Positions 8,132-51,223 of a stretch of 64,000 nt of DNA are shown in pieces; the stretch's first letter is position 1, and each line of letters begins with the position of its first letter. The notes beneath the pieces are model-generated. The model was given only the letters and a program-made list of their open reading frames with translations, did not search any database and was not told the DNA's origin. Position numbers and translations under genes: made by a program. Source of the stretch: Acidimicrobium ferrooxidans (GTDB lineage: Bacteria > Actinomycetota > Geothermincolia > Fen-727 > Anoxymicrobiaceae); the NCBI GenBank assembly GCA_020723485.1, contig DYIU01000002.1, positions 591,543 to 655,542 of the forward strand, given 5' to 3'.

Positions 8132-9091
8132 CTACTCGCCTTCGACTGGCACCGTCTTTACCGCGCCGAACCTCTTGCGCACAACTACGCGGTTCAGCAG
8201 GGGCGTCAGGGCGTTGCCGATGAGTATCGAGTAGGCCACCGCGCCCGTAGGTGCGGCGTAGAGCCGTATCACCGTGACCAACACGCCGATTATCACACCG
8301 TAGATGATCTGGGCCAGCCTGTTGTCAGGGCTCGTTACCCAGTCGGTCGCCATGAAGACGGCGCCGAACACCAGGCCGCCGGCGAGGATCATGTAGAGCG
8401 GGTTCTCGCCGAGTATCGCGGTCAGGATGAACACGGTGCCGATTATCGAGACCGGGATGTGCCATGTGATGTGGCCCTTGTACATCAGGTAGGCCCCACC
8501 GATGAGCACCGCCAGTATCGATACCTCGGCCATCGCCCCTCCGGCGTGTCCCAGGAACAGCCACCAGTAGCCGGGGCGCAGACCGTTAAGCGCGCCGGCC
8601 TTGATGAAGGTCAGCGGCGTGGCGGACGTCACCCCGTCCAGGGCGCCCAGGTACAGCGTAGTGGCGGTCAATCCGAAGAGCTGGGAGATTATCAACAGTG
8701 ATACAAACCCGAACAACGCGGGGTTGAAGATGTTGTATCCGAGTCCTCCCATCAGCTCCTTTACCAGGGCCACCGCAATGAAGGTGCCGATCATCACGTA
8801 CCAGAACGGCACTCCGGGCGGAAGCAGAAGGGCAACGAACAGGCCCGTCACTATGGCGCTGAAATCGCCGATCGAGGGCTCCCTGCCCATTATCTTGCGC
8901 ATGACCCACTCGCAGGCGATTGCCGTGACGACGGCCGCGGCCAGGTTCACGATGGCGTAAAGCCTGAAGAACCCGATGGCCACCGCGATGACGGGAATGA
9001 GGGCGATCGCAACATCCCTCATGGCAGAACCCGTCAGGTCCTTGCTCTTGATGTGCGGCGGTGGCGAGTATGCGAACTCGTTGTTTGCCAT
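8132..9091 (-). CDS. rnfD: RnfD, membrane subunit of an Rnf-type complex
   Basis: A 319-residue polytopic membrane protein. It has the RnfD/NqrB landmarks: N-terminal SPPPHIKSKDLTGSAMRDV, IMGREPSIGDFSAIVTGLFVALLLPP, NIFNPALFGF, and the covalent-flavin motif DGVTSATPL at residues 152-160, where Thr carries FMN. The C-terminal half contains further helices and MATDWVTSP. ATG 9091 lies 18 nt after the rnfC stop. Rnf complexes normally need RnfG, E, A and B as well; none is encoded here, and the operon ends at the hairpin directly downstream. The identity is clear; the partner set is not. Confidence 0.93.
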   Translation of the reverse strand: MANNEFAYSPPPHIKSKDLTGSAMRDVAIALIPVIAVAIGFFRLYAIVNLAAAVVTAIACEWVMRKIMGREPSIGDFSAIVTGLFVALLLPPGVPFWYVMIGTFIAVALVKELMGGLGYNIFNPALFGFVSLLIISQLFGLTATTLYLGALDGVTSATPLTFIKAGALNGLRPGYWWLFLGHAGGAMAEVSILAVLIGGAYLMYKGHITWHIPVSIIGTVFILTAILGENPLYMILAGGLVFGAVFMATDWVTSPDNRLAQIIYGVIIGVLVTVIRLYAAPTGAVAYSILIGNALTPLLNRVVVRKRFGAVKTVPVEGE

Positions 9092-36098: not shown

Positions 36099-37043
36099 TC
36101 ATTTGTACTTCTTCTTGAGCTGCTCTACCTGGGCCCATGCCTGGCCGACGTAGTTTTCCACCTCTGCGTTCTTGGCCTTGACACCGGACACCTCGAGCGC
36201 GACGTCCATCAGCGCCACAAACTCCGCGCTGAAATCCGCCCATTCGTCGGGCACGTCTTCCAGCAGGGGTTCGACCCTGCTGTTACGTGACCCCTGCTGT
36301 GAATCGGAGGCCTCTTCCCCTTCATCCTCGTTGGGCGAGGTTTCCTGGTAGGGGTAGGCGTCGGCGCCGGTGCCAAGTTCCTTCGAGGCTTTCTGGAAGG
36401 AGCCAACCAGCGAGGCCGTGAACTCGCGGAGCTCATCGTTCATACCCTGAAACAGAAGCGGCGGCACCATGGCGGCCAGGTCGGCGTTTGCGCCCTCGAT
36501 CTTCTCTGTGAGCGCGGCCAGTCCTGACGGGATGTCGTTGTCCTTCTGGAGCGTCTCGAGTGACGCTACTACCTCGCCTATCCTGGCCGCGACGGGACCC
36601 ACACGCTTGGTATAGTCCGCGAACGGGCTGGTGAGGTCGGCGAGCTCCCGCCCGTTGCTCACGGTCTTTCTCAGCAGGGTCTCGAGCTCGAGGCACTGCT
36701 CTGGAGGGTCGGCCGAGTCTATGATCTCCTGGGCCTCGGCGAGCGCCTTGCGGTAGTCAGCGAGGACCTCCTGCATCCCCGCCTGGTCGCTGATGGGGAC
36801 CAGCCAGAGCTTCTTCAGCTCCGTGGACTTGGCGTTCAGGTTCGAGACCGTCTCGTTGACTCGCTCGGCATAATCAGTGATGGCCTTGTTGCCGCCGCAT
36901 CCAGAGAAGAGGGCAGCGAGGAGGAGCACTGAAGCGAGGATGAACGAAGCAGCGACTCGTGCGGGGCGGCCTTCGCGGCGCCCCCGGGGCGCAGCCCGCC
37001 GGCCTGTTCCAACCTTACCGCTCTGGGTGGCTCCCCGATGCAT
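36099..37043 (-). CDS. Predicted lipoprotein of unknown function
   Basis: A 314-residue protein with a lipoprotein signal: a basic N-region, the hydrophobic ARVAASFILASVLLLAALFSG and a lipobox cysteine (LFSGCGGNK). The mature part is mostly helical and acidic, with residues spaced as in coiled coils (AERVNETVSNLNAKSTELKK, VVASLETLQKDNDIPSGLAAL). No enzyme motif is visible. I take ATG 37043, which leaves a long basic n-region; a shorter start is possible. It is probably anchored to the outer face of the membrane. It is divergent from the metallopeptidase gene across 170 nt. Confidence 0.8.
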   Translation of the reverse strand: MHRGATQSGKVGTGRRAAPRGRREGRPARVAASFILASVLLLAALFSGCGGNKAITDYAERVNETVSNLNAKSTELKKLWLVPISDQAGMQEVLADYRKALAEAQEIIDSADPPEQCLELETLLRKTVSNGRELADLTSPFADYTKRVGPVAARIGEVVASLETLQKDNDIPSGLAALTEKIEGANADLAAMVPPLLFQGMNDELREFTASLVGSFQKASKELGTGADAYPYQETSPNEDEGEEASDSQQGSRNSRVEPLLEDVPDEWADFSAEFVALMDVALEVSGVKAKNAEVENYVGQAWAQVEQLKKKYK

Positions 37044-37212
37044 CAAACTGCCTATTCCAGACCCCCGGTTGAAATCGATCAATACCAGTACGCTGTCGCG
37101 CTGATATTATATATCAAGCATCCGGCGGCCCGCGACGCCCGGGGAACGCCCCCGGAGCCCGGCTCGTCTAAACGGCGCATGGGAGCGCGCGTGCGCTTCA
37201 GCGGAGGTACTG

Positions 37213-38610
37213 TTGTTCAGAAAAGGCGTCTTCATAGCCCTTGTGGCCGCTTCGCTGCTGGTTGTGGCCGGAGTGGTGGCTTTCGGCGCCGTGGCCATCG
37301 AGCGGGGCCGCATGTACCTGCCCCCAGAGAACTATCTCTCCTTCAAGGAGTTCACAACCGGCGAGCTGCTGCACTTCGACCTCGAGGTGGACATCGCCAC
37401 CTGCGGCGAGAAGGTGGAGTCCGCCGAGCTCGACCTGATAGAGCAGCAGACCTCCCAGCTGCGGGGCCTCCCCCTCAAGAAGGACGTCCCGTTCCTCGAA
37501 ATGCCCGAGGAGGCGGTCAGGTTCCAGCTCATGCAGGAGTTCGGCGAGGAGATGCCCGCCGAGGAGATGGAGGCAGACGAGAAGCTGCTCGTCGCGCTCG
37601 GGCTGTTCCCGGAGGACAAGAGCCTCGAGAAGGTGATGACCGACGTCTACACCGAGCAGATAGCGGGTACCTACGACTCCGAGCTCGAGCAGATAACGAT
37701 AGTCGCCGGCAAGGACGGCACCGGGGCGGCGATGGACAAGCTCACCACGTCACACGAGGTCACCCACGCCCTGCAGGACCAGAACTTCGACCTCGACAAG
37801 GCCCCCCTCGACAACGAGGACTACAACGGCGACAACGACCTGGCCGTGACCTCGCTCGTTGAGGGCGACGCGATGCTCTCGATGTACCTCTACGCCCAGG
37901 AGTACGTGACCGCAACCGAGCTGCGGGAGATGATGAATGAAGAGGTCGAATCCGAGCAGCTGGACAGCGCCCCGCTCTACTTACGACGCAGCATCCTCTT
38001 CCCGTACGACGAGGGCTTCTCTTTCGTGCAGGAGCTGGCTGGCGGCGGGCTCGAGTTCGTCAACTTCGCGCTCTCCGATCCACCGCTCTCCACCGAGCAG
38101 ATAATCCACCCCGAGAAATACATGGAGACCCGCGACAACCCCCGCGCTGTGCCGGTTCCCGACATCTCCGCCTCCCTCGGCGAGGGGTGGAAGAAGATAA
38201 ACGAGGACTGCATGGGCGAGTTCGACGTGGACGTCTGGTTCGAACAGTTCTTCGGCGAGGACGGCCGACCGGAGGTCGGCGAGGGTTGGGGCGGCAACAC
38301 CATCCAGTACTACCAGGGACCGAAGGAAAAGTACGTCATGGTCAACGACTTCGCCTGGGACTCCCCCGAGGAAGCGAGCGAGTTCTTCGAGGCCTACGAG
38401 GACCTGCTGAAGGCCCGGTTCAAAGGTGACATCAAGAGCGCGGGTCTCAGCATGCCCGACGCCTTCATATACGAGGCGGACGGCGTCCTCTACTACTGCG
38501 GCATCAGCGGCGACAGGGTCCTCTGCCTCGACGCCCCCGACCGCGACACTCTCAACAAGGCCCTCTCAAACTTCCCCGGCCTCCCGGCCGCCCCACTCCC
38601 AGGAATCTAG
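37213..38610 (+). CDS. Secreted or membrane-anchored zinc metallopeptidase-like protein
   Basis: A 465-residue protein. One N-terminal hydrophobic helix (residues 6-29, GVFIALVAASLLVVAGVVAF) serves as signal or anchor. The zinc motif is SHEVTHALQDQ (H181, E182, H185), and VEGDA at 217-221 supplies the likely third ligand E218, a gluzincin-like layout. The C-terminal part (WGGNTIQYYQGPKEKYVMVNDFAWDS) is unassigned. I do not know a named family. TTG 37213 follows GGAGG with a 6-nt spacer. It probably acts outside the membrane on peptides or cell wall proteins. Confidence 0.8.
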   Translation: MFRKGVFIALVAASLLVVAGVVAFGAVAIERGRMYLPPENYLSFKEFTTGELLHFDLEVDIATCGEKVESAELDLIEQQTSQLRGLPLKKDVPFLEMPEEAVRFQLMQEFGEEMPAEEMEADEKLLVALGLFPEDKSLEKVMTDVYTEQIAGTYDSELEQITIVAGKDGTGAAMDKLTTSHEVTHALQDQNFDLDKAPLDNEDYNGDNDLAVTSLVEGDAMLSMYLYAQEYVTATELREMMNEEVESEQLDSAPLYLRRSILFPYDEGFSFVQELAGGGLEFVNFALSDPPLSTEQIIHPEKYMETRDNPRAVPVPDISASLGEGWKKINEDCMGEFDVDVWFEQFFGEDGRPEVGEGWGGNTIQYYQGPKEKYVMVNDFAWDSPEEASEFFEAYEDLLKARFKGDIKSAGLSMPDAFIYEADGVLYYCGISGDRVLCLDAPDRDTLNKALSNFPGLPAAPLPGI

Positions 38611-38879
38611 GTTCTATACGCCTCTCCCCTGTGCTTTACTGCCTGAATGAAGATGACTTTCGCATCATCGTCGACATCGTACCTGATTCGATAACTTCGG
38701 ACCCTGACCCTATATTCTCCCAGGTCCCTCACTTTTAGCTTCGCGTGACCCGGAGGCCTCGGGTTTAGTTCAAGCGCCTTCATTGCCTTGAGTAAAGCTT
38801 TTCTGTCTCCAGGGGGTGCCTTCTTAATCTCCTTTGCGACATCCCTTGCGACCCTTAACTCGTAGGCGTGTTCACTCAA
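38607..38879 (-). CDS. RelE/ParE-type toxin
   Basis: A 90-residue protein. The sequence YELRVARDVAKEIKKAPPGDR, KLKVRDLGEYRVRVRSYRIRYDVDDDAKVIFIQAVKHRGEAY is the RelE/ParE fold with its basic beta-sheet face and C-terminal KHRGEAYR. RelE toxins cut mRNA on the ribosome; ParE poisons gyrase. This one looks closer to RelE. It starts at TTG 38879 inside the end of the antitoxin gene (8-nt overlap), the standard antitoxin-first coupling. Confidence 0.9.
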   Translation of the reverse strand: MSEHAYELRVARDVAKEIKKAPPGDRKALLKAMKALELNPRPPGHAKLKVRDLGEYRVRVRSYRIRYDVDDDAKVIFIQAVKHRGEAYRT

Positions 38880-39165
38880 GTCTGAGGAACTCCTCCAGCT
38901 CGTCCAGGGTCATGTAGTCCCCAGTTTCAAAAGCTCTTCGTGAACGGGCGACCATCAGCAGGACGTTCTTGTCATGGACGTCCTCAAGGTACTCCATCAG
39001 CGCCTCGTACTCCTCTATCGGCAAGCACACCGCATCAGGCTGCCCTCTGTCAGTCACGATGATCTTTGACTGTTTCTGCCTTGCTTTCTTGATCAAAGCG
39101 GTCATGCCCTCTCGGAATTTGCGACGTCCGACGAAGATGTCCGAGGATTCAATCGAGTATCCCAT
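38872..39165 (-). CDS. Phd/YefM-type antitoxin
   Basis: A 97-residue protein. REGMTALIKKARQKQSKIIVTDRGQPDAVCLPIEEYEALMEYLED is the Phd/YefM DNA-binding domain, and the acidic C-terminus (TGDYMTLDELEEFLRLE) binds and neutralises the toxin. ATG 39165 has GGAGGTGAGAGC upstream. It precedes and overlaps the RelE-like toxin gene by 8 nt. Such pairs autoregulate through the antitoxin. Confidence 0.9.
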   Translation of the reverse strand: MGYSIESSDIFVGRRKFREGMTALIKKARQKQSKIIVTDRGQPDAVCLPIEEYEALMEYLEDVHDKNVLLMVARSRRAFETGDYMTLDELEEFLRLE

Positions 39166-39246
39166 GCTCTCACCTCCGTTTCCTATGATAACACATAACG
39201 GAAACATCGGTGAATCAATAGATTCTCTTGTAGTTCGCGATTGCCC

Positions 39247-42200
39247 TTAGTCGACGCCGTAACCGTTGACGTCGTGGCCCCCCGTGATCGATTCGTTGTA
39301 CTGGAAGTACATCGGCCGCTCGATGACTATGGGGAACGAGGCAGTGATGGACCCACTGACGTTCGCTTCTCTCTGGATCGCCTCCCTGACGTTTATCGTT
39401 ATCCGGGAGTGCGGCTCGATGAAGTAGTGCGAGTCATGCGTCGAGCCGTCTCCGAAGATGTACTGTACGGTCACGTCACAGCCTGTTTCCCTCGGATTGG
39501 CTAGCGAATAAAAGGTGTCAAAGCGACTGATTGTTGTGCCTTCTGCGAGAAAATAGGTCGAACTTGGGGACGGATTGCCGACCGCTGACTCACCGCCGTT
39601 CCAGTATTTCCCTGAGTCCATTCCATAAATGAAATACATCGGTCTCTCTGCTATCACCGGCACGTCCGAAGTCACCGTCGCGGAGACGTCCTGGTTGTCG
39701 CCCACCTCAGAAAGCACGTCGACTGTGGCCCGGCTGCGAGGATTCACTCTCTTCACAACCCTGGTCGTCTTCCCCTGGCCCGTCATGTAATTGAGGGTAC
39801 AGGTGGCCGCTACGTCATTTGGATTCTGAATGGTTATCCACTCCTGGAAGCCCGGCCTCGTGCATCCTTCCGCGAACGACCAGGACTTCGATGGCCCACT
39901 CGCCCCAACAACGTTTGAGCCGTCGATCGCGAACCCGTGATAGTTGAAATAGATGGGACGCTCGGCTGCGATAGGGATATCGGAGACAACCTTGGCTGAC
40001 ACGTCCTGGTTCAATCCGATATCACGCGCGACTTCGACCGTGTAACGTGAATGGGGAGCGACCTGGTACACCTTGTCGACATTCTGACCCGTTCCGAGCA
40101 TATAAGTCACAACCACAGTCGCAGTCTGTGAATCCGAAGGATTCTGCAGGCAGATCCATTCCTCGAATGCTCCGTCGACGCTGTTGTTGCGGGTCGTCCC
40201 CTCCGCGAAGTACCACTCGCGCTGCAGCGTATTGATACCCATGACGTCATGGCCGCCCTTCCAGTAGTAATTTGGCACGCCGTACTTGTAGACGAAGTAC
40301 ATGGGCCGCTCGGCGACTATAGCCTGGCTGTCGGAATGGATCTTTGTGGAGACTCCGGAGTGCGGCTCCCCGACGTAATCTTTTACCCTTACTGTGTCGC
40401 GCTGATGAGGCATCATCGAGCGCTCGAACGTTCTCACCTCGCCTGTCTCGAGCATGAATGAGACCTGGTAACGCGCTGGATTGTCACCGGGATTGAGAAC
40501 GCAGAGCCACTCGTCGAACTCCGGCAGGGTGCTCCCCTCAGGAAAGTACCAGTCGCGCGCTACGTTCCCAAGAAACACGTTCTTTGAGCCCGTACCCATG
40601 TTTCCCGCGCGGTCCTTGGCCTTAACCGTAATCCTGTGCGTGCCCTCCGGCACACCGCCCAGAGGCCATACGTAGGCCATGTTGAAGCTTGATGTCGTCT
40701 CATACTTTCTCTCACCATCGACATAAATCGCCGCCCACGACAAGCCGTTCGCGTCTGTCGCGGTGCCCGTGATCCTGAAGGACTCGTTGTTGTAGTACCC
40801 GGTCTGGATCGTGTCCTTCGAGGGCCTTGTGACGGAAGGCACGGGGGAAGTCTTGTCGACAAAGACGTCTGCGGTACGTGTTTCTTCGATGTTGCCCGCC
40901 CTGTCCTCCGAATAGAAGTGGACCTTCCACTTACCCTCGGCTAGTTCGAACGGGGTGGAAAAAAGCGTCCAGTTCGAATCAATCTGTCCATTCCCCAGGT
41001 TCTCGACCTTGTAGAAGGTGTCGCAGGGAGAGAAATCGCTGACGGTGAACGAGGTGCTCACATTGGAGCGGTAATAGCCGCCGGTGCCCTCGGTCCCGAC
41101 CGCCTTGAGCGAGCTCAACGGGGGGTTTTTATCGATATATATCCAGGGCGAAATCCACTCGGCCGTGTTTCCGGCAGTATCTGTAGTAGTCGTCTTTATC
41201 TTTATGGTCCGCTGGTTGAGCTCGTCCGTGTTACACACCTTTGCGAAGGGCGCAGTCGTCGCGATATTGTTGACACCACCTGCACAAGGAAGTGCTTGCC
41301 AAGTAACTTCGTCTTCCGAGAAGCTATAAATCAATTCCTTAAAACCTCTGGAATACATTTGCGGTCCAACTAGGTCCGAGCCGGTCACATTGAAATCGTC
41401 CGTCGCATCACCACACTCGACTGTGAAGTTCGCATTTAAAAAGACTGGATCGCTCCCATTGAAAGTGGGTGAGGTAAGCACTGCTTCTGTACCGCTCAAA
41501 TCCACTCGCCTGACGAAAATCTCTCCATCTGTGGTCAATGCTGATGCATAGTGAATGGCATAGTCATTCGTATGGTCAATCGAACAGAGAGAGATTGATC
41601 GGTTGTTCGCGGCGACGGTCTTGGCACCAAAGAACTGCGTAGTAGTATCCCATTCGGTTAACATGTTGCTTGTGTTTTTGAAGAAGCAATCGCCGGCGGC
41701 AAAGCCGACAGTTTCCGGACACGTCGGCACAGTACTAGTGCTTGCTCGTTCGCTCTGGGCAACTGTACTCGGCATCCAGGAAGCCCCGACCGGGTTAAAG
41801 TAGAACCTGCCGAAGAAGTAATGGCTGTCGGTAACGCTCTGTCCCTGGTAGGCAACGACCGGATGGTGGCTTTCCCAGAATATGGACGGGTATCCCTGGC
41901 GGTAGTTGCTGTCGTAGGGCAGCGGGCCGGAGCCTGGGGCGCCCCATGTCTCGCCGGAATCGACCGTCCTGTTGGCAACAAGGTGTCTCCGTGTGTACGG
42001 ACCACCGGCTTCGTCGGTCCACAGCACCATCGCATCGGCATTCCCGTTGCACGCAATAACCGGATTGTGGCTGACGATGGAGTCGTTTGCGCTGATTGCA
42101 TTTCCTGATGAGACAGTTCCGTCAACTTGGATCTTTCCCCACCTGATTTCGCCGGTACCGCTCTCGTCGCTGCAGAACGCATAGGCGATTACGTTGTTCG

Positions 42201-42684
42201 TGTCCCACCTGCAGGCGTCATGGTCCGTTCGGTTGAAGTTGCCTGTCGAATGCCAGCGGCTCTCAGCCGGAAATGTAGCCCCCCAATCGTTGCTCCTTGC
42301 CACCCACGTCTGGTAATAACCGTTGCCGTTGCGCTTGCCGGCCCATACGACATAGACGGCATCGTAGGTGGCGGAGCCGACACATACGATAGCGGGACCG
42401 TTGTTATAAGCGCTGTTCTCAATTATGACGTAGGGCGCCCACGTCGCTCCCGCGTCAGTTGAGCGCCTGAAGCAGATAGCACCGTCGTCCCTCTGCCAGA
42501 CGGCGAACACGTAGTTCTGAAACGCGTCGATATCGCATGTCACGGCATGCGAACCGGTTATCTGCTGCTGCAATGTCCAACCGCTCGGATACGCAAGCGC
42601 CGCTTTCGATGGCAGAAACATGAACAGCAGGAGCCCCAAGAGTGTGAGCAAGATCGCCAACACAAGGACGCGCTTCGACATCAT
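39247..42684 (-). CDS. Large secreted protein with sialidase-like propeller and four C-terminal repeats
   Basis: An 1145-residue secreted protein. A signal peptide (VLVLAILLTLLGLLLFMFL) is followed by a sialidase-like/BNR propeller with Asp-box motifs (STDAGATWAP, SNDWGATF, TVDSGETWG). Two Ig-like or OmpL47-like modules (about residues 430-710, YIDKNPPLSSLKA, HFYSEDRAGNIEETRTADV) come next. Four repeats of about 110 residues (roughly 713-1145) share W-x-F-x-E-G-x-T, EW-x-x-x-x-N-P and A-E-R-P-M-Y-F. No catalytic sialidase residues are obvious, so binding or adhesion is likely. It begins 14 nt after the receiver/PKD gene. By eye its codon use is less GC-rich than the surrounding genes. Confidence 0.82.
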   Translation of the reverse strand: MMSKRVLVLAILLTLLGLLLFMFLPSKAALAYPSGWTLQQQITGSHAVTCDIDAFQNYVFAVWQRDDGAICFRRSTDAGATWAPYVIIENSAYNNGPAIVCVGSATYDAVYVVWAGKRNGNGYYQTWVARSNDWGATFPAESRWHSTGNFNRTDHDACRWDTNNVIAYAFCSDESGTGEIRWGKIQVDGTVSSGNAISANDSIVSHNPVIACNGNADAMVLWTDEAGGPYTRRHLVANRTVDSGETWGAPGSGPLPYDSNYRQGYPSIFWESHHPVVAYQGQSVTDSHYFFGRFYFNPVGASWMPSTVAQSERASTSTVPTCPETVGFAAGDCFFKNTSNMLTEWDTTTQFFGAKTVAANNRSISLCSIDHTNDYAIHYASALTTDGEIFVRRVDLSGTEAVLTSPTFNGSDPVFLNANFTVECGDATDDFNVTGSDLVGPQMYSRGFKELIYSFSEDEVTWQALPCAGGVNNIATTAPFAKVCNTDELNQRTIKIKTTTTDTAGNTAEWISPWIYIDKNPPLSSLKAVGTEGTGGYYRSNVSTSFTVSDFSPCDTFYKVENLGNGQIDSNWTLFSTPFELAEGKWKVHFYSEDRAGNIEETRTADVFVDKTSPVPSVTRPSKDTIQTGYYNNESFRITGTATDANGLSWAAIYVDGERKYETTSSFNMAYVWPLGGVPEGTHRITVKAKDRAGNMGTGSKNVFLGNVARDWYFPEGSTLPEFDEWLCVLNPGDNPARYQVSFMLETGEVRTFERSMMPHQRDTVRVKDYVGEPHSGVSTKIHSDSQAIVAERPMYFVYKYGVPNYYWKGGHDVMGINTLQREWYFAEGTTRNNSVDGAFEEWICLQNPSDSQTATVVVTYMLGTGQNVDKVYQVAPHSRYTVEVARDIGLNQDVSAKVVSDIPIAAERPIYFNYHGFAIDGSNVVGASGPSKSWSFAEGCTRPGFQEWITIQNPNDVAATCTLNYMTGQGKTTRVVKRVNPRSRATVDVLSEVGDNQDVSATVTSDVPVIAERPMYFIYGMDSGKYWNGGESAVGNPSPSSTYFLAEGTTISRFDTFYSLANPRETGCDVTVQYIFGDGSTHDSHYFIEPHSRITINVREAIQREANVSGSITASFPIVIERPMYFQYNESITGGHDVNGYGVD

Positions 42685-42698
42685 TACCCTCCCACCCC

Positions 42699-43847
42699 TT
42701 AAATCACCCTTACACTCATCGACGCCGTTGACGAAGCCCCCCTACTGTCCGTGACGGTCACGCTGACGGAGTAGAGCCCGGGAGTGCTCCAGCACCGGGT
42801 CACAGTTGAGCCGCCCCAGCTGAACGAGATGCTATCCCCATCCGGATCGGAGCCCGATGCCGAGAACGTGGCTGACTGCCTCGCCATGACCTGCGTTGGC
42901 CCGTTGACGCTCGCGCTGGGCGGACGATTCGCCTGAGGTGTCGGCGGCACGGCCACGCCCGTGCTGCTCTCTTCACCAGACCATGTAGAACCACTGGAGG
43001 GGACCGGGGAGACTGCTGCTATTGTTGACGCCGGACTGCCGGGGGTCTGCGGTGGCTGCTCTTGATCTACCTCGGTCAAGCTGTATGGAGACGTCCCCTC
43101 GCCCAGTGGTGAAACATGCTTCGGCTCATTCTTAACAGACTCGGCAGCTACGCGGCGTTCATTGATTCTGACCGGCTCAGCCTTACGGGCTGTGAAAGGC
43201 CCCCATGCGAACAGCCACCAGGTAACAGCGGCGAACAGCACGAACAAGGCTCCTGCTTTGAATCTGCCAGAAGTTGTCAGAGCGGATTTCCCGTGGTCAT
43301 GAGATGAGAAAGCCTTATCCCCTGAGAGGCGTCCGGCGAATCCGTCAGGAGGCGCGACCTCTTCCTCAGCTGGTGCCCCAGGTTCCGAATGCGAGCCCCT
43401 CCCGAGTGTCTTCCACGCGGTTTTCGCCTGCTGCTCAATCTGCCGGAGATTTTCATCGCCCGTCATTGTCGGGGTAATGCTTAGTACATTCTCTGGAGCA
43501 GTCGGCTCACGCCGCAGGTGAGAAAAGACAAAAGGAATATCATCCTTGATCCTGCTGCGGGTGATGAAAGTGTCAACACTCCATGCAGTGCAGTCCTCTT
43601 CGAGATTATCTGTCAGAAGCACGACACCACTCGGCGGTGGCAGTTGAGGGTCGTGCCCGAGGTGTTTCAGGAAAGCCTGAGCTTGCGGTGTATCAGCGCA
43701 CACGAAATAGTAATCGAAATCATTTTCGGCTATGAGGTAGAGCGCCTGGTTAATGTCTGGTGCAACTGAGACCTCGCCAAACCTGCGAAGTGCTCTGACA
43801 ATAGCACCCGACTTATGAGAGTCGAGATAAAGGATTTGAATTTTCAC
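42699..43847 (-). CDS. Receiver-like domain, one membrane helix and extracytoplasmic PKD domain
   Basis: A 382-residue protein of unusual layout. Residues 1-112 resemble a response-regulator receiver fold (MKIQILYLDSHKSGAIVRAL, ALYLIAENDFDYYFVCAD, SGVVLLTDN), but the acidic pocket is degenerate. A linker follows to one membrane helix at 197-217 (FKAGALFVLFAAVTWWLFAW). A Pro/Ser-rich stretch leads to a PKD domain at about 308-382 (ATFSASGSDPDGDSISFSW, YSVSVTVTDSRGASS). The receiver would lie inside and the PKD outside. The large secreted protein gene follows after 14 nt, so the two probably work together. I know no named family with this order. Confidence 0.78.
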   Translation of the reverse strand: MKIQILYLDSHKSGAIVRALRRFGEVSVAPDINQALYLIAENDFDYYFVCADTPQAQAFLKHLGHDPQLPPPSGVVLLTDNLEEDCTAWSVDTFITRSRIKDDIPFVFSHLRREPTAPENVLSITPTMTGDENLRQIEQQAKTAWKTLGRGSHSEPGAPAEEEVAPPDGFAGRLSGDKAFSSHDHGKSALTTSGRFKAGALFVLFAAVTWWLFAWGPFTARKAEPVRINERRVAAESVKNEPKHVSPLGEGTSPYSLTEVDQEQPPQTPGSPASTIAAVSPVPSSGSTWSGEESSTGVAVPPTPQANRPPSASVNGPTQVMARQSATFSASGSDPDGDSISFSWGGSTVTRCWSTPGLYSVSVTVTDSRGASSTASMSVRVI

Positions 43848-45817: not shown

Positions 45818-48457
45818 ATGACAGCGTTTCCGGATGAGAAGCCAGGTCGTGAGATGCGTATCCTGATAGTCGAGGACGAGAGCAGCACGGCGTCCGTCTT
45901 GCAGATGCTGCTTCAGAACTCCATGGACGCGGCGGTGGACGTGGCGTTCGACTGCTCCACGGCACGCCAACTCCTGGCCTCCGGGGTCTACGACCTGGTG
46001 ACCCTCGACTTCCAGCTCCCCGACTGCGACGGTCTCACGCTTCTCGAAGAGATCAACGCCCGCGAGGACGCGCCTCCCGTGGTCATGGTCACCGGGCACG
46101 GCGACGAGCGCACTGCGATTTCCGCCTTCAAGAAGGGGGCGTCCGGGTACGTCGTGAAGGACATGCGGCTCTCCACGATGCTGGTGGAGCAGGCGCGCTC
46201 GGCCCTGGCTAGGGCGGAGGTGGAGAAGGCGAAGGAGGGCCTGGAGTTCGAGCGCCAGCAGCTACTGTCCATATTCGACAGCATCGACGAGATAGTCTAC
46301 GTGAGCGACCCCGAGACCTACGAGGTACTCTACGCGAACAAGGCTTCGCAGGAGATATTCGGCGATATGATCGGCAGCAAGTGCTATGAAGCCCTGCAGG
46401 GCTTTAAGAAACCTTGTTCTTTTTGCACGAACAAACACATCTTCGGCGAGCACGAGGGCGAGGCCTATATCTGGGAGTTCCAGAACACGCTTGACGGCCG
46501 CTGGTACCGGTGCATCGACCGGGCCATCCGCTGGCCTGACGGACGGGCCGTCCGCTACGAGATGGCGGTGGACATCAACGACGTCAAGGTCGCGGCCGAG
46601 GCTCGGGAGGCCGGCGAGAACCAGTTCGAGGTACTCGCAAACACCTTGCCCCAGGTCGTATACGAATACGCCCCTGACGGGCTTATCACTTACGTCAACG
46701 ATGTGGCCTTCGACATGTTCGGATACACGCGCGAGGACATGGAAAAAGGCGTGTACGTGCTCGATATCATCGACCTTACAGACCAGGAGCGCGTCTCGGG
46801 GGCCATCGAGAAGATGATGGACGGTCGCTCGACCGGCGCCATCAGGGAGTACCTGGCTAAGAGGAAGGACGGCTCGACGTTTCCTATCCGTGCTTACACC
46901 ACGCTCATCACAGATAGCGAGGGCAGGCCTGCGGGCGTAAGGGGACTGGCCACCGACATAACCGAAGAGAAGGAAGCGGAAAGAGAGCTCAAGGAGAGAG
47001 AGGCGAGGCTCAGCGCGCTCTTCGACACCATGGCCGAGGGCCTCATGTTCATCGAGCCTTCAGGGAACATTACATACGCCAATCCCGCTTCCGAGGAGTT
47101 GCTGAGACTCGACCGCGCCACAATGGAGCAGAGGAAGTACAACGACACGGAGTGGGAGGTCCTTAAGGAAGACCTCACTCCGATGCCCCGCAGCGAATGG
47201 GCCGCAAGCCGCGCTCTCGCCGAGAAGACCAAGGTGACCGGGCAGGTGATGGGAGTAAAGCGGCCAGACGGCTCGGTACTCTGGATGAACCTCAGCGCCT
47301 CTCCGATATTCCTGGAATCGGGCGAGCTCGCCGGCGTGGTCGCTACTTTCACGGATATCACCGAGCGCAGGGAAGCCAGACTCGCGCTCGAGACCGAGCA
47401 GGCGTTCACCGAGAAGCTCCTCAACTCACTCGACGATATCTTTTATGTCCTGAGCATTGAACTCGGGGGCCGGCTGGTGCGGTGGAACAGGGCGTTCAGC
47501 AGGATATCCGGCTTTTCAGACGACGAGCTTTCCAGGATGACGGTCTTCGACTTCTTCGACGAAGCGGGCAAGAAGGCGCAGGAGGAGTTCCTCGGGGAGC
47601 TGATGGCTTCCGGTTCGGCCGTCATTGAGATGGATACGATACTCAAAGATGGAAGGAAAGTCCCTTACCAGTTCCGGTCGACGCTGGTGAAAGACGAGGA
47701 AGGAAATCCTATCTATGTCACCGGTGTGGGCAGGGACATCTCCGACATCAAGGAGGCGGAGGAACAGCTCCTGCTCGCCAATCAGGAGCTCGAGGGATAT
47801 GCGAGAACGGTGTCACATGACCTCAAGGCCCCTCTCACGGTCGTCTCGACCGCCGCGGACTTTCTAGAGAGGGCGCTGAACTGCGGGGAACTGAAGTCGA
47901 GCGACCCGCAGACCTGTGAGACCGTGCAGCTCATAGCAGAGACCGCCAGGAAGGCCGCGCGCATGACCGACGACCTGCTGGAGCTCGCGCGGGCGGGAGA
48001 GGCCCCGGCCGCCAGCGAGCCTGTCAACATCTCGGACCTGGTGAGGACTATCAGCGAGGAAAAGAAGGCCCAGATAGAGGAACGCGGGGTCACGGTGTAT
48101 GTCGATGATGACATCGGCGCGGCAGCGATGGACCCGACACACGCCTACCAGCTCTTCTCGAACCTCATCGACAACGCCATCAGGTACAACGACAGCAAAG
48201 ACCCCGTGATACGTATCTCGCGCCGGGCCGGAGCTGAGCCCGGATACACCGGGTATGAGATATGCGACAACGGTCCCGGTCTTCCCCGGGGGTTGGAAGA
48301 GGACATCTTCCTGCCCTTCCACAAGGGCTCAATGTCCAACGGTTCCGGGGTCGGGCTCTCGATAGTGAGCAAGATAGTGCGACTGTACGGCGGCCGCATC
48401 AGCGCTAGGAACGATGAGGGTGCCTGCTTCGAGTTCACGCTGCCGGCTTCACTCTAG
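45818..48457 (+). CDS. Hybrid sensor: receiver, four PAS domains and histidine kinase
   Basis: An 879-residue cytoplasmic sensor with no membrane helix. A receiver domain (ILIVEDES, phospho-acceptor D64 in TLDFQLPD, VVKD) is followed by PAS domains at about 140-260, 265-385, 390-520 and 520-640. The first PAS contains KCYEALQGFKKPCSFC, a Cys-rich version common in kinases. HisKA (TVSHDLKAPLTVV, phospho-His) and HATPase_c (SNLIDNAIRYND, DNGPGLPRG, GVGLSIV) complete it. ATG 45818 or 45854 can start the protein. It faces a paralog with 60 nt between the stops. The signal it senses is unknown. Confidence 0.92.
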   Translation: MTAFPDEKPGREMRILIVEDESSTASVLQMLLQNSMDAAVDVAFDCSTARQLLASGVYDLVTLDFQLPDCDGLTLLEEINAREDAPPVVMVTGHGDERTAISAFKKGASGYVVKDMRLSTMLVEQARSALARAEVEKAKEGLEFERQQLLSIFDSIDEIVYVSDPETYEVLYANKASQEIFGDMIGSKCYEALQGFKKPCSFCTNKHIFGEHEGEAYIWEFQNTLDGRWYRCIDRAIRWPDGRAVRYEMAVDINDVKVAAEAREAGENQFEVLANTLPQVVYEYAPDGLITYVNDVAFDMFGYTREDMEKGVYVLDIIDLTDQERVSGAIEKMMDGRSTGAIREYLAKRKDGSTFPIRAYTTLITDSEGRPAGVRGLATDITEEKEAERELKEREARLSALFDTMAEGLMFIEPSGNITYANPASEELLRLDRATMEQRKYNDTEWEVLKEDLTPMPRSEWAASRALAEKTKVTGQVMGVKRPDGSVLWMNLSASPIFLESGELAGVVATFTDITERREARLALETEQAFTEKLLNSLDDIFYVLSIELGGRLVRWNRAFSRISGFSDDELSRMTVFDFFDEAGKKAQEEFLGELMASGSAVIEMDTILKDGRKVPYQFRSTLVKDEEGNPIYVTGVGRDISDIKEAEEQLLLANQELEGYARTVSHDLKAPLTVVSTAADFLERALNCGELKSSDPQTCETVQLIAETARKAARMTDDLLELARAGEAPAASEPVNISDLVRTISEEKKAQIEERGVTVYVDDDIGAAAMDPTHAYQLFSNLIDNAIRYNDSKDPVIRISRRAGAEPGYTGYEICDNGPGLPRGLEEDIFLPFHKGSMSNGSGVGLSIVSKIVRLYGGRISARNDEGACFEFTLPASL

Positions 48458-48517: not shown

Positions 48518-51223
48518 TCAGAGGGCGTCGTGGAGGGTGAACTCGAAGCAGGCTCCGCCGTCGTTGTAGACCGTTAGCTCCCCGTCGTAGGCCCTGACAA
48601 TCCGCTCGGCGATCGATAGCCCTATGCCGGTCCCCTCGGTGTTTCCGCCCTTGTAGAACGGCTTGAATATGTCCTTTATCTCGCTGGGCGGTATCCCGGG
48701 GCCGTTGTCGCAGACCTGGTACCGGTGCGCGCCGGCGTCGTCCTCTCCCAGGTAGCGCACCTCGACGGTCGGACGGTCCGAATCGTTGTGGGCGAGGGCG
48801 TTCGATATCAGGTTGGAAAAGACCTGGTAAACCTGGGTCCAGTTGGCCCTCAGCCGGCCCAGGTCGTCATCAATGAACACCTTGGCGCATGTCTCGGTTA
48901 TCATGACCGACATGTCCGCAAGCACGTCCTTCACCACGGCGCCCGCATCCACATCCTCCACGGCCACCGGGGCCTGGCCGGCCTCGGCAAGCCTCAGGAG
49001 GTCTTCTATTCTCTTCGATGCCCTGTCCGAGTTGTGGCGGATGACGTCCAGGACCTCGGCCAGCTCCTCGGAGCTTGAGCCCGCCCTGGCGGCGTTTATG
49101 AAGGTCTCGGCCGCCACCTGCATCGCGGCAATCGGGCCCTTCAGGTCGTGGGAGACCGTCTGCGCGTAGCCGCGCAGCTCCTCGTTCGCCCTCAGGAGCT
49201 CGTCCTCGGCCTTCTTGCGCTCGGTTATGTCCTCGACCGCTCCTATCCCGCCGACCACGACACCTTGCGCGTCCCGCAAAGGGCTTATTTCAGCGGATAT
49301 CCAGAGCGACATTCCGGTCGGTTCGTCGTGGAACGGACCCTCGTAATGAGCCACCCGCCCCTCTAGCGCCTCCCTTAGAAAGGGGATTATCGCGTGTTCG
49401 CCTATGTCCGCGAGCTCCCTGCCCATCATCCGCTCGCGGGCGGTCTCGAACATCTCGATGAATCGGTCGTTGCACTCGGTGACCACAAGGTCGTCGTTGA
49501 AGATAAGCACCCCGATGGGAGACTGGTCGAAGAGGGCCCGGTACCTCTCCTCCGCCTGGCGGTGCTGCTCTTCGGACCTCTTCAACGCATCCTGCGCCGC
49601 TTTCTTCTCGGTGATGTCTATGACCACGTTGGTGACGCCGATTATCTTCCCTACTTCGCTGCGGAGGGCGGCGCCCGTAACGTCTCCCAACTTCTGGGAG
49701 CCGTCCTTCAGAATGAACCTGTACTCATCGTGCACCACCTCCTCCTCCCCGGTGAAGAGCATCTGTATGTCCCGCCCGGCTGCTTCCATGTCGTCCGGGT
49801 GCAGGATGCCCAGGGCGAGCACGTTCCTGCCCATGAGCTCCTCGCGCTCGTACCCGATGAGCTCGCACGCCCTCCTGTTTATTCCTATCAGGTTCAGCTC
49901 GAGGTCGTAGGTGTAAGTCGGCTCCCCCATCTCCTCGTAGAGCATCCTGTAGCGCTCTTCGCTCTCCCGGAGGGCTCCGAGGAGCCGCGAACGTCCGACC
50001 GCCTGGCCGACGAGGTTCGCGATCGATTCCACGGTGTCGCGCATCGCGGGCGTGAACGCTTCAAGATTGTGGGAGGCAACGTTGAGGCTGCCGACGACCT
50101 CACCCTCGAAACGCAGGGGCACCACCGCGAAGGAGCGGATGCCCTCATTCTCGAGTGCGGCGGACCTGTCGGAGACAACCTCCTGGTAGTCATGGAACAC
50201 CGGTTCGCCCGCCGTCACCATCTTCGCGAGGAGGTCGGTGCGTTCGTTGTGCGTCACGGCCCCGACGAACTTCTCCGAGAGGCCGGTATGGTATGCGATG
50301 TCGAGCTCCCCCGTCGGCCTGTCCAGGATGTGGACGCTTCCGGCGTCGAGCCCGGTGAGCTCGAGTATGTTCTCGAGTGCAAGCTCGTAGACCCTGTCGG
50401 GTTCGCTTTCCTCGCTCAGCGCTAGGGCGATGTCGCGCTGGGCGCGGATCAGCTCCTCGACCCTCTTCCTCTCGGTGACGTCGCGGGAGCCGAAGATGGC
50501 ACCGGCGTGACGCCCCTCGTCGTCGTACAGCAGCCGGGTGTTCGACTCGACCCAGATATACTCGCCGTCCTTCCGCTTGTAGCGGTACTCCAGGCGGACC
50601 AGCTGCTCCCTGTTCCGGACGGCCTGCCTGAACTGCTCCGCTATCCTCTTCCGGTCGTCTGGGTGCATGAGCTCCGTGGAGGTGCGACCGGTCATCTCCT
50701 CGCTGGTATAACCCAGGGGGACCTCCCTGGAAGGCTTGTGGTAGATGAACTGCCCGGTCCTGTCGCTCTGTGTTACAGAGTCGCCCATGTTCTCTGTGAT
50801 GAGCTTGAGCTGTGCCTCGCTCCTCTTGAGGGCTTCTATGGCCCTCCTGAACTGGATGGCCCGCTCGGACTCCTCGACCAGGAGCGTGGTAAGCCTCCTG
50901 TCCTTCACCACGTATCCCGAGGCCCCTTCCTTGAACGACTCGACCGCGGTCTGTTCGTCCCCGTAGCCGGTGACCATGATGACAGGAGGGTGTTCCTCGC
51001 TCGAGGTTATCTCTTTCAGGAGCTCGAGCCCGCTCTCGTCTGGCATCTGGTAATCGAGGGTCACCAGGTCGAAATCGACCGACTTCATCGCCTCGCGGGC
51101 GGCCGCGCAGGTGTAGGCGACGGTGACCTCTGCTGAGAGTTCCTGCTCCAGCAGGAGCTTTATCATCGCCACAACGGACTCGTCGTCATCAACGACGAGT
51201 ATTCTGGGGTTGACCTGCTGCAA
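48518..51223 (-). CDS. Hybrid sensor: receiver, PAS, GAF, PAS, PAS and histidine kinase
   Basis: A 901-residue soluble sensor kinase. Receiver (ILVVDDDES, D57 in TLDYQMPD, VVKD), PAS (about 140-260), GAF (about 275-430, GLDAGSVHIL, FAVVPLRFEGEVVGSLNVAS), two more PAS units (about 435-680), HisKA (TVSHDLKGPIAAM) and HATPase_c (SNLISNALAHNDS, DNGPGIPPSEIKDIF, GTGIGLSIAERI). TTG 51223 follows AGGAAGGG. The receiver and kinase ends match those of the convergent 45818-48457 gene, so they look like paralogs with different sensory middles. The N-terminal receiver suggests control by another kinase or by cross-phosphorylation. Confidence 0.92.
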   Translation of the reverse strand: MQQVNPRILVVDDDESVVAMIKLLLEQELSAEVTVAYTCAAAREAMKSVDFDLVTLDYQMPDESGLELLKEITSSEEHPPVIMVTGYGDEQTAVESFKEGASGYVVKDRRLTTLLVEESERAIQFRRAIEALKRSEAQLKLITENMGDSVTQSDRTGQFIYHKPSREVPLGYTSEEMTGRTSTELMHPDDRKRIAEQFRQAVRNREQLVRLEYRYKRKDGEYIWVESNTRLLYDDEGRHAGAIFGSRDVTERKRVEELIRAQRDIALALSEESEPDRVYELALENILELTGLDAGSVHILDRPTGELDIAYHTGLSEKFVGAVTHNERTDLLAKMVTAGEPVFHDYQEVVSDRSAALENEGIRSFAVVPLRFEGEVVGSLNVASHNLEAFTPAMRDTVESIANLVGQAVGRSRLLGALRESEERYRMLYEEMGEPTYTYDLELNLIGINRRACELIGYEREELMGRNVLALGILHPDDMEAAGRDIQMLFTGEEEVVHDEYRFILKDGSQKLGDVTGAALRSEVGKIIGVTNVVIDITEKKAAQDALKRSEEQHRQAEERYRALFDQSPIGVLIFNDDLVVTECNDRFIEMFETARERMMGRELADIGEHAIIPFLREALEGRVAHYEGPFHDEPTGMSLWISAEISPLRDAQGVVVGGIGAVEDITERKKAEDELLRANEELRGYAQTVSHDLKGPIAAMQVAAETFINAARAGSSSEELAEVLDVIRHNSDRASKRIEDLLRLAEAGQAPVAVEDVDAGAVVKDVLADMSVMITETCAKVFIDDDLGRLRANWTQVYQVFSNLISNALAHNDSDRPTVEVRYLGEDDAGAHRYQVCDNGPGIPPSEIKDIFKPFYKGGNTEGTGIGLSIAERIVRAYDGELTVYNDGGACFEFTLHDAL

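Follow-up and report, generated by a model that had tools for sequence, protein, structure and literature searches.

A pseudo-receiver joined through a membrane helix to a PKD domain, and its secreted partner, in uncultured Actinomycetota

Two adjacent genes from an order of uncultured Actinomycetota look like an inside-to-outside link at the cell surface that is so far undescribed. The first encodes a receiver-like domain, a membrane helix and a PKD domain that is predicted to lie outside the cell, and the second encodes a large secreted protein. The combination of these three parts in one protein, put forward in the original prediction, is borne out by Pfam, by hydropathy and by a profile built from 11 orthologues. 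The window, meaning the whole stretch of 64,000 nucleotides that was analysed, belongs to a genome of 3.36 Mb (G000), whose relatives include the Actinomycetota MAGs KR13_S3 and KR13_N2.

Organization of the membrane protein

The open reading frame (42699-43847, minus strand) begins with GTG and encodes 382 amino acids. A chance open reading frame is ruled out by its conservation in 11 genomes and by a low dN/dS. The protein is divided as follows:

43512..43847 (-), pseudo-receiver domain, residues 1-112; profile matches to response regulators only, hhalign, and 50-67% identity between genera
43512..43847 (-), strands of this domain: b1 IQILYLD, b2 VSVA, b3 YYFVCAD, b4 GVVLLTDN, b5 TFITR
43698..43700 (-), codon 50, Cys at the phospho-acceptor column; alignment, Asp in the other 10 orthologues
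43263..43511 (-), cytoplasmic linker, residues 113-195, charged and unconserved; alignment and hydropathy
43206..43262 (-), single transmembrane helix, residues ~196-214; hydropathy
42939..43205 (-), outer linker, residues 215-303, Pro/Ser/Thr-rich and unconserved; alignment and hydropathy
42702..42938 (-), PKD domain, residues 304-382; Pfam PKD_4 5.5e-10, PDB collagenase PKD domains E 1.8e-5

When the 382-residue protein is compared with Pfam, the PKD domain is the one region recognized (residues 307-381; PKD_4 E 5.5e-10, PKD E 4.2e-7), and both models score over their curated cut-offs (PF18911, 39.6 bits vs 27; PF00801, 30.3 vs 23.5). The hydrophobic segment at residues 196-214 is the sole one in the protein, with a mean Kyte-Doolittle value of 1.75, and hydropathy places one such segment in each of 12 of 12 homologues, in which the linkers on either side of the helix span 70-180 residues and show no conservation. 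Because the helix has positive charges on either side, the topology that we infer from the sequence, with the N-terminal domain in the cytosol and the PKD domain outside, draws mainly on the soluble N-terminal domain, which carries no signal peptide, and on the extracellular nature of PKD domains.

The N-terminal domain as a degenerate receiver

Searches of Pfam, NCBIfam and the PDB with the single window sequence detect no receiver. The receiver profile comes from an alignment of 11 orthologous N-terminal domains (A1). At E<1 it retrieves 12 PDB sequences, each a response regulator or a CheY-like protein, with 6xvu on top (E 4e-4). Comparison of this profile with six true receivers by hhalign gives 95% and E 3e-8, and in both the PDB matches and hhalign column 50 aligns to the phospho-accepting Asp. 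In a search of 296 genomes of the phylum, four weak matches (E 4.6e-6 to 8.8e-4) fall outside the order. Three of them belong to proteins recognizable as response regulators (a receiver-histidine kinase, a CheA-CheY hybrid and a LytTR-type regulator). Five strand-helix units are visible in the alignment. The span from the β4 Thr to the β5 Lys/Arg covers 18 residues, vs ~22 in usual receivers, so that helix α4 looks shortened. The 11-orthologue profile and hhalign thus bear out, at the level of sequence, a degenerate receiver at residues 1-112, and support the view that the domain is a pseudo-receiver of receiver ancestry.

A pseudo-receiver is defined, in a 2025 review (PMC12632262), as a receiver in which at least one of the five residues D, DD, T, K is missing. 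The alignment contains no complete site in any of the 11 orthologues, nor in a diverged paralogue from the window genome (12 of 12 incomplete). The N-terminal domain falls within this definition, since every orthologue and the paralogue miss at least one active-site residue; a canonical response regulator is ruled out by the same incomplete D, DD, T, K site. Two positions, DD1 (D9) and T79, are invariant among the 11 orthologues, as is an extra Asp two residues after the acceptor (D52). DD2 is acidic only in the congeneric G007 and G008 and non-acidic in the other nine, and 10 of 11 have Arg or His in place of the catalytic Lys. The phospho-acceptor position holds Asp in 10 of the 11; the window copy has Cys there and by definition is an Asp-less receiver with Cys (Cys-ALR; PMC4395418). 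This Cys is known from one genome only and should not be over-read.

Since the site is incomplete in all 12 sequences and the paralogue keeps the Thr alone, phosphorylation would be an unlikely function for the family as a whole. On the other hand, an acceptor Asp in 10 and a Thr in 11 of the 11 orthologues leave room for residual phosphate chemistry or metal binding. Most orthologues could then be phosphorylated or metal-bound and switch a surface complex, and the Cys of the window copy would be either a loss confined to it or a redox variant (Cys-ALR). The kept Asp and Thr, the first acidic residue in 11 of 11 and the invariant Asp at D+2 are compatible with such a switch, and a Cys at the acceptor site is a known class of pseudo-receiver with a redox example (PMC4395418, PMC5965902). 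With the second acidic residue gone in nine orthologues, the Lys exchanged for Arg or His in 10 and no site complete, this explanation is improbable.

Distribution and pairing of the genes

The N-terminal domain occurs once per genome in 11 of the 13 genomes of the order, and was not found in the 18 other genomes of the class that were searched. The order pseudo-receiver, helix, PKD domain is kept in 11 of 11 orthologues. In the window, the partner gene follows on the same strand after 14 nt and encodes 1145 amino acids, as originally predicted, and the pairing proves strict: the next same-strand gene encodes a partner-type secreted protein in 11 of 11 loci, and the spacing ranges from an overlap of 4 nt to a gap of 67 nt, the partner being cut by a contig end in several of them. 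The same domain order beside a secreted WxFxEGxT protein, which the prediction suggested looking for, is kept in 11 of the 13 genomes of the order. Domain order and gene pair kept in this proportion indicate more than chance.

Variants of the partner gene are also present. In G007, two tandem duplicated partners lie behind one PKD protein (L032 8926-13458 and 13476-16964). In G006 and G009 the partner reading frame is apparently interrupted (L031 ~8600-8931; L034 ~766-836), which may reflect assembly error, decay or switching.

The surroundings of the pair contain further genes. A gene at 37213-38610 (+) encodes a protein with an HExxH motif that resembles surface proteins of the Hvo_1808 family (NCBIfam E 1.3e-43, under the cut-off of that model). 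In G001, G006 and G011 the pair likewise has homologues of it in its vicinity, together with a putative lipoprotein (window 36099-37082). A Phd/YefM-like antitoxin and a ParE-like toxin (38607-39207, minus strand) are located between this gene and the partner. Two receiver-PAS-histidine kinases are encoded near the pair, at 45818-48457 (+) and 48518-51223 (-), and a similar one within 6 kb of it in G005 (L029 5199-8297).

The secreted partner

The partner is composed of four regions:

42592..42684 (-), signal peptide, residues 1-31, ending ...ALA-YPSGW, with cleavage before YPSGW; sequence
41431..42591 (-), BNR/sialidase-like propeller region, residues 32-418; PDB sialidases E 2e-6 (profile A3), BNR_2
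40570..41430 (-), Ig-like region, residues 419-705; Pfam Big_13 and Big_7, conserved in paired loci
39250..40569 (-), four WxFxEGxT repeats, DUF5719-like, residues 706-1145; conserved clade of paired loci

The AYPxGW motif around the cleavage site is conserved in the alignment of partners. BNR_2 is matched in 10 of 12 partner members at E<=1, which identifies the region as an Asp-box propeller; a FRIP-like motif was not seen by eye in partner alignment A3. Propellers similar to that of the window partner are confined to genomes that also possess the PKD protein, and G003 and G004 lack both.

The repeats are far more widespread. The window genome contains 175 WxFxEGxT stretches, dozens of proteins carry them without a PKD partner, and matches are found in 31 of the 31 genomes of the class searched. 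This very large DUF5719-like expansion in G000 points to a possible surface module of the whole class. Because the repeats are generic, the partner might stay at the surface without the PKD protein. A role of the PKD protein as anchor for all WxFxEGxT proteins is rejected, given 175 stretches vs two PKD-receiver loci in the genome.

The C-terminus of the partner is nevertheless distinct from these generic repeats. When its last 440 residues are compared with the 31 genomes, the 13 best matches are paired loci or contigs apparently completing them, with 49-74% identity besides the query itself, vs 42% for the first unpaired match. A tree was built from the C-termini of 14 paired and 16 unpaired proteins, the latter a sample of controls, and it groups the paired ones in one clade (support 0.958).

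The strict adjacency and tight spacing of the genes, and the absence of both from G003 and G004, would also suit a PKD protein that acts solely as an assembly or export helper for its neighbour, either as a membrane chaperone or as a marker of the secretion site. Such a helper would leave the receiver fold as the most conserved part unexplained, and dozens of other WxFxEGxT proteins are made without one; its likelihood is very low, a shade below that of the phosphate or metal switch.

Constrained and variable parts

Between genera, identity is 50-67% for the receiver and 41-76% for the PKD domain; propellers of paired loci share 16-46%. In the congeneric G007 and G008, dN/dS is ~0.11 for the receiver, 0.14 for the PKD domain, and 0.46 and 0.65 for the two linkers. 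The receiver is the part under strongest constraint, with the PKD domain and the partner's C-terminal repeats next in order, and the propeller and both linkers are the variable parts.

This distribution of constraint can be read in two directions. The chief rival of a tether is outside-in signalling via clustering, in which binding of a ligand to the propeller would alter how the PKD protein clusters, and the pseudo-receivers would then bind and tune a histidine kinase or response regulator, as a two-component co-receptor. A variable outer and a conserved inner part would be expected of such a receptor, the N-terminal domain descends from receivers, and the window genome encodes 41 canonical receivers. 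Receiver-histidine kinases are also encoded nearby, 2-7 kb upstream in the case of the window and no more than 6 kb away in G005, but a kinase gene beside the pair is not kept across genera. The 70-180 unconserved residues on both sides of the helix speak against it as well: long flexible linkers of this kind favour tethering over rigid signal transmission. Outside-in signalling is therefore unlikely, although it deserves more weight than the switch or the helper.

A second locus and an exchange of modules

The window genome contains the diverged paralogue at a second locus (G000:C3, L039 12402-13646), again with N-terminal domain, helix and PKD domain. Its N-terminal domain shares only 16-21% identity with the others, and its five active-site columns read Ser, Ser, His, Thr and Glu. 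Two secreted partners follow in tandem (L039 5514-12405), the first of which has a 4-nt overlap with the paralogue gene.

G005 combines elements of both loci. Its receiver is orthologous to that of the window (65% identity, vs 19% to the paralogue), its PKD domain is closer to that of the paralogue (65%, vs 47% to the window), and its partner shares 55% identity with the first partner of the paralogue, vs 23% with that of the window. This pattern fits a joint change of PKD domain and partner under a constant receiver, as would be expected if the two form a functional unit; it could equally be the result of a single recombination tract across adjacent DNA. A mirror-tree comparison of PKD and partner distances, with receiver distances removed, gives a partial r of 0.27 (p 0.07), which is not significant. 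The link between PKD protein and partner thus receives indirect support, from the clade of paired C-termini and from the joint switch in G005.

Proposed arrangement

The preferred reading, tentative and with somewhat less than an even chance of being right, is a two-gene complex spanning the membrane, with the pseudo-receiver docking inside, the PKD domain and the partner C-terminus associated outside, and the variable propeller displayed. The PKD protein would span the membrane, and its pseudo-receiver, facing the cytoplasm, may offer a docking surface for a cytosolic protein rather than a phospho-switch. A flexible Pro/Ser/Thr-rich stalk would carry the PKD domain outside the cell. There the PKD domain, or the whole membrane protein, may act with the partner via the conserved WxFxEGxT C-terminus, and the variable propeller would be shown as a receptor or adhesin at sites chosen from the cell interior. 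Such a complex is supported by the gene pair kept in 11 orthologous loci together with the diverged second locus, and by the restriction of window-type propellers to genomes having the PKD protein; it is weakened by the dozens of WxFxEGxT proteins that occur without a PKD partner. The original prediction is partly supported: its domains and the gene pairing are borne out, and sensing of the cytoplasmic state by the receiver and retention of the secreted protein by the PKD domain are putative roles.

The further claim, that this is a transmembrane connector of a new kind, in which a receiver fold provides the cytosolic grip of a surface display and an exchangeable propeller is locked on via the PKD domain and a dedicated WxFxEGxT end, is doubtful, with a standing well below that of the complex itself and barely above that of outside-in signalling.

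Comparison with known systems

The prediction of an undescribed surface system is in line with the literature searched, which covers part of the whole and contains no counterpart: nothing was found for receiver plus PKD, for a membrane-bound response regulator or for DUF5719, which is weak evidence of novelty, and a pseudo-receiver with a membrane-PKD output appears neither there nor in the available parts of PMC12632262 and PMC4395418. The family belongs to the pseudo-receivers, and for its membrane-PKD output and fixed secreted partner no described counterpart was found.

Like other pseudo-receivers and atypical response regulators (PMC12632262, PMC4395418), the N-terminal domain combines receiver ancestry with the absence of at least one active-site residue. 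The Cys in place of the acceptor Asp in the window copy recalls the Cys-ALR forms (PMC4395418), and DD2 is the acidic residue lost most often in this family, as in pseudo-receivers generally (PMC12632262). It differs from them in its output, for which it has a membrane helix followed by an extracellular PKD domain in place of DNA binding or an enzyme. How bacterial pseudo-receivers act at the molecular level is termed a mystery in the 2025 review (PMC12632262). In the natural family described here, a domain descended from receivers has lost the chemistry of phosphorylation and is paired with a constant extracellular partner; its hosts are uncultured bacteria of one order, whose genomes each encode dozens of surface proteins with WxFxEGxT repeats. 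The family offers a testable case of a receiver fold joining the cytoplasm to the cell surface.

In layout only, the membrane protein resembles the RsgI-type anti-sigma factors of Clostridium thermocellum (PMC12203970, PMC4711584), with a cytosolic N-terminal regulatory domain, one helix and an extracellular binding domain. No anti-sigma domain is found by Pfam or NCBIfam, and no sigma gene is recognized among the neighbouring open reading frames. The membrane protein departs from RsgI in having a pseudo-receiver on the cytosolic side and a PKD domain as ectodomain, with a separate secreted protein as the candidate for ligand binding. The partner, for its part, is similar to sialidase/BNR surface proteins with DUF5719-like repeats, with which it shares the signature of an Asp-box propeller as well as the WxFxEGxT repeats that are frequent in the class. 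It differs from other such propeller proteins in that the paired partners have their own clade of C-terminal repeats and are always preceded by a gene for a pseudo-receiver, a transmembrane helix and a PKD domain.
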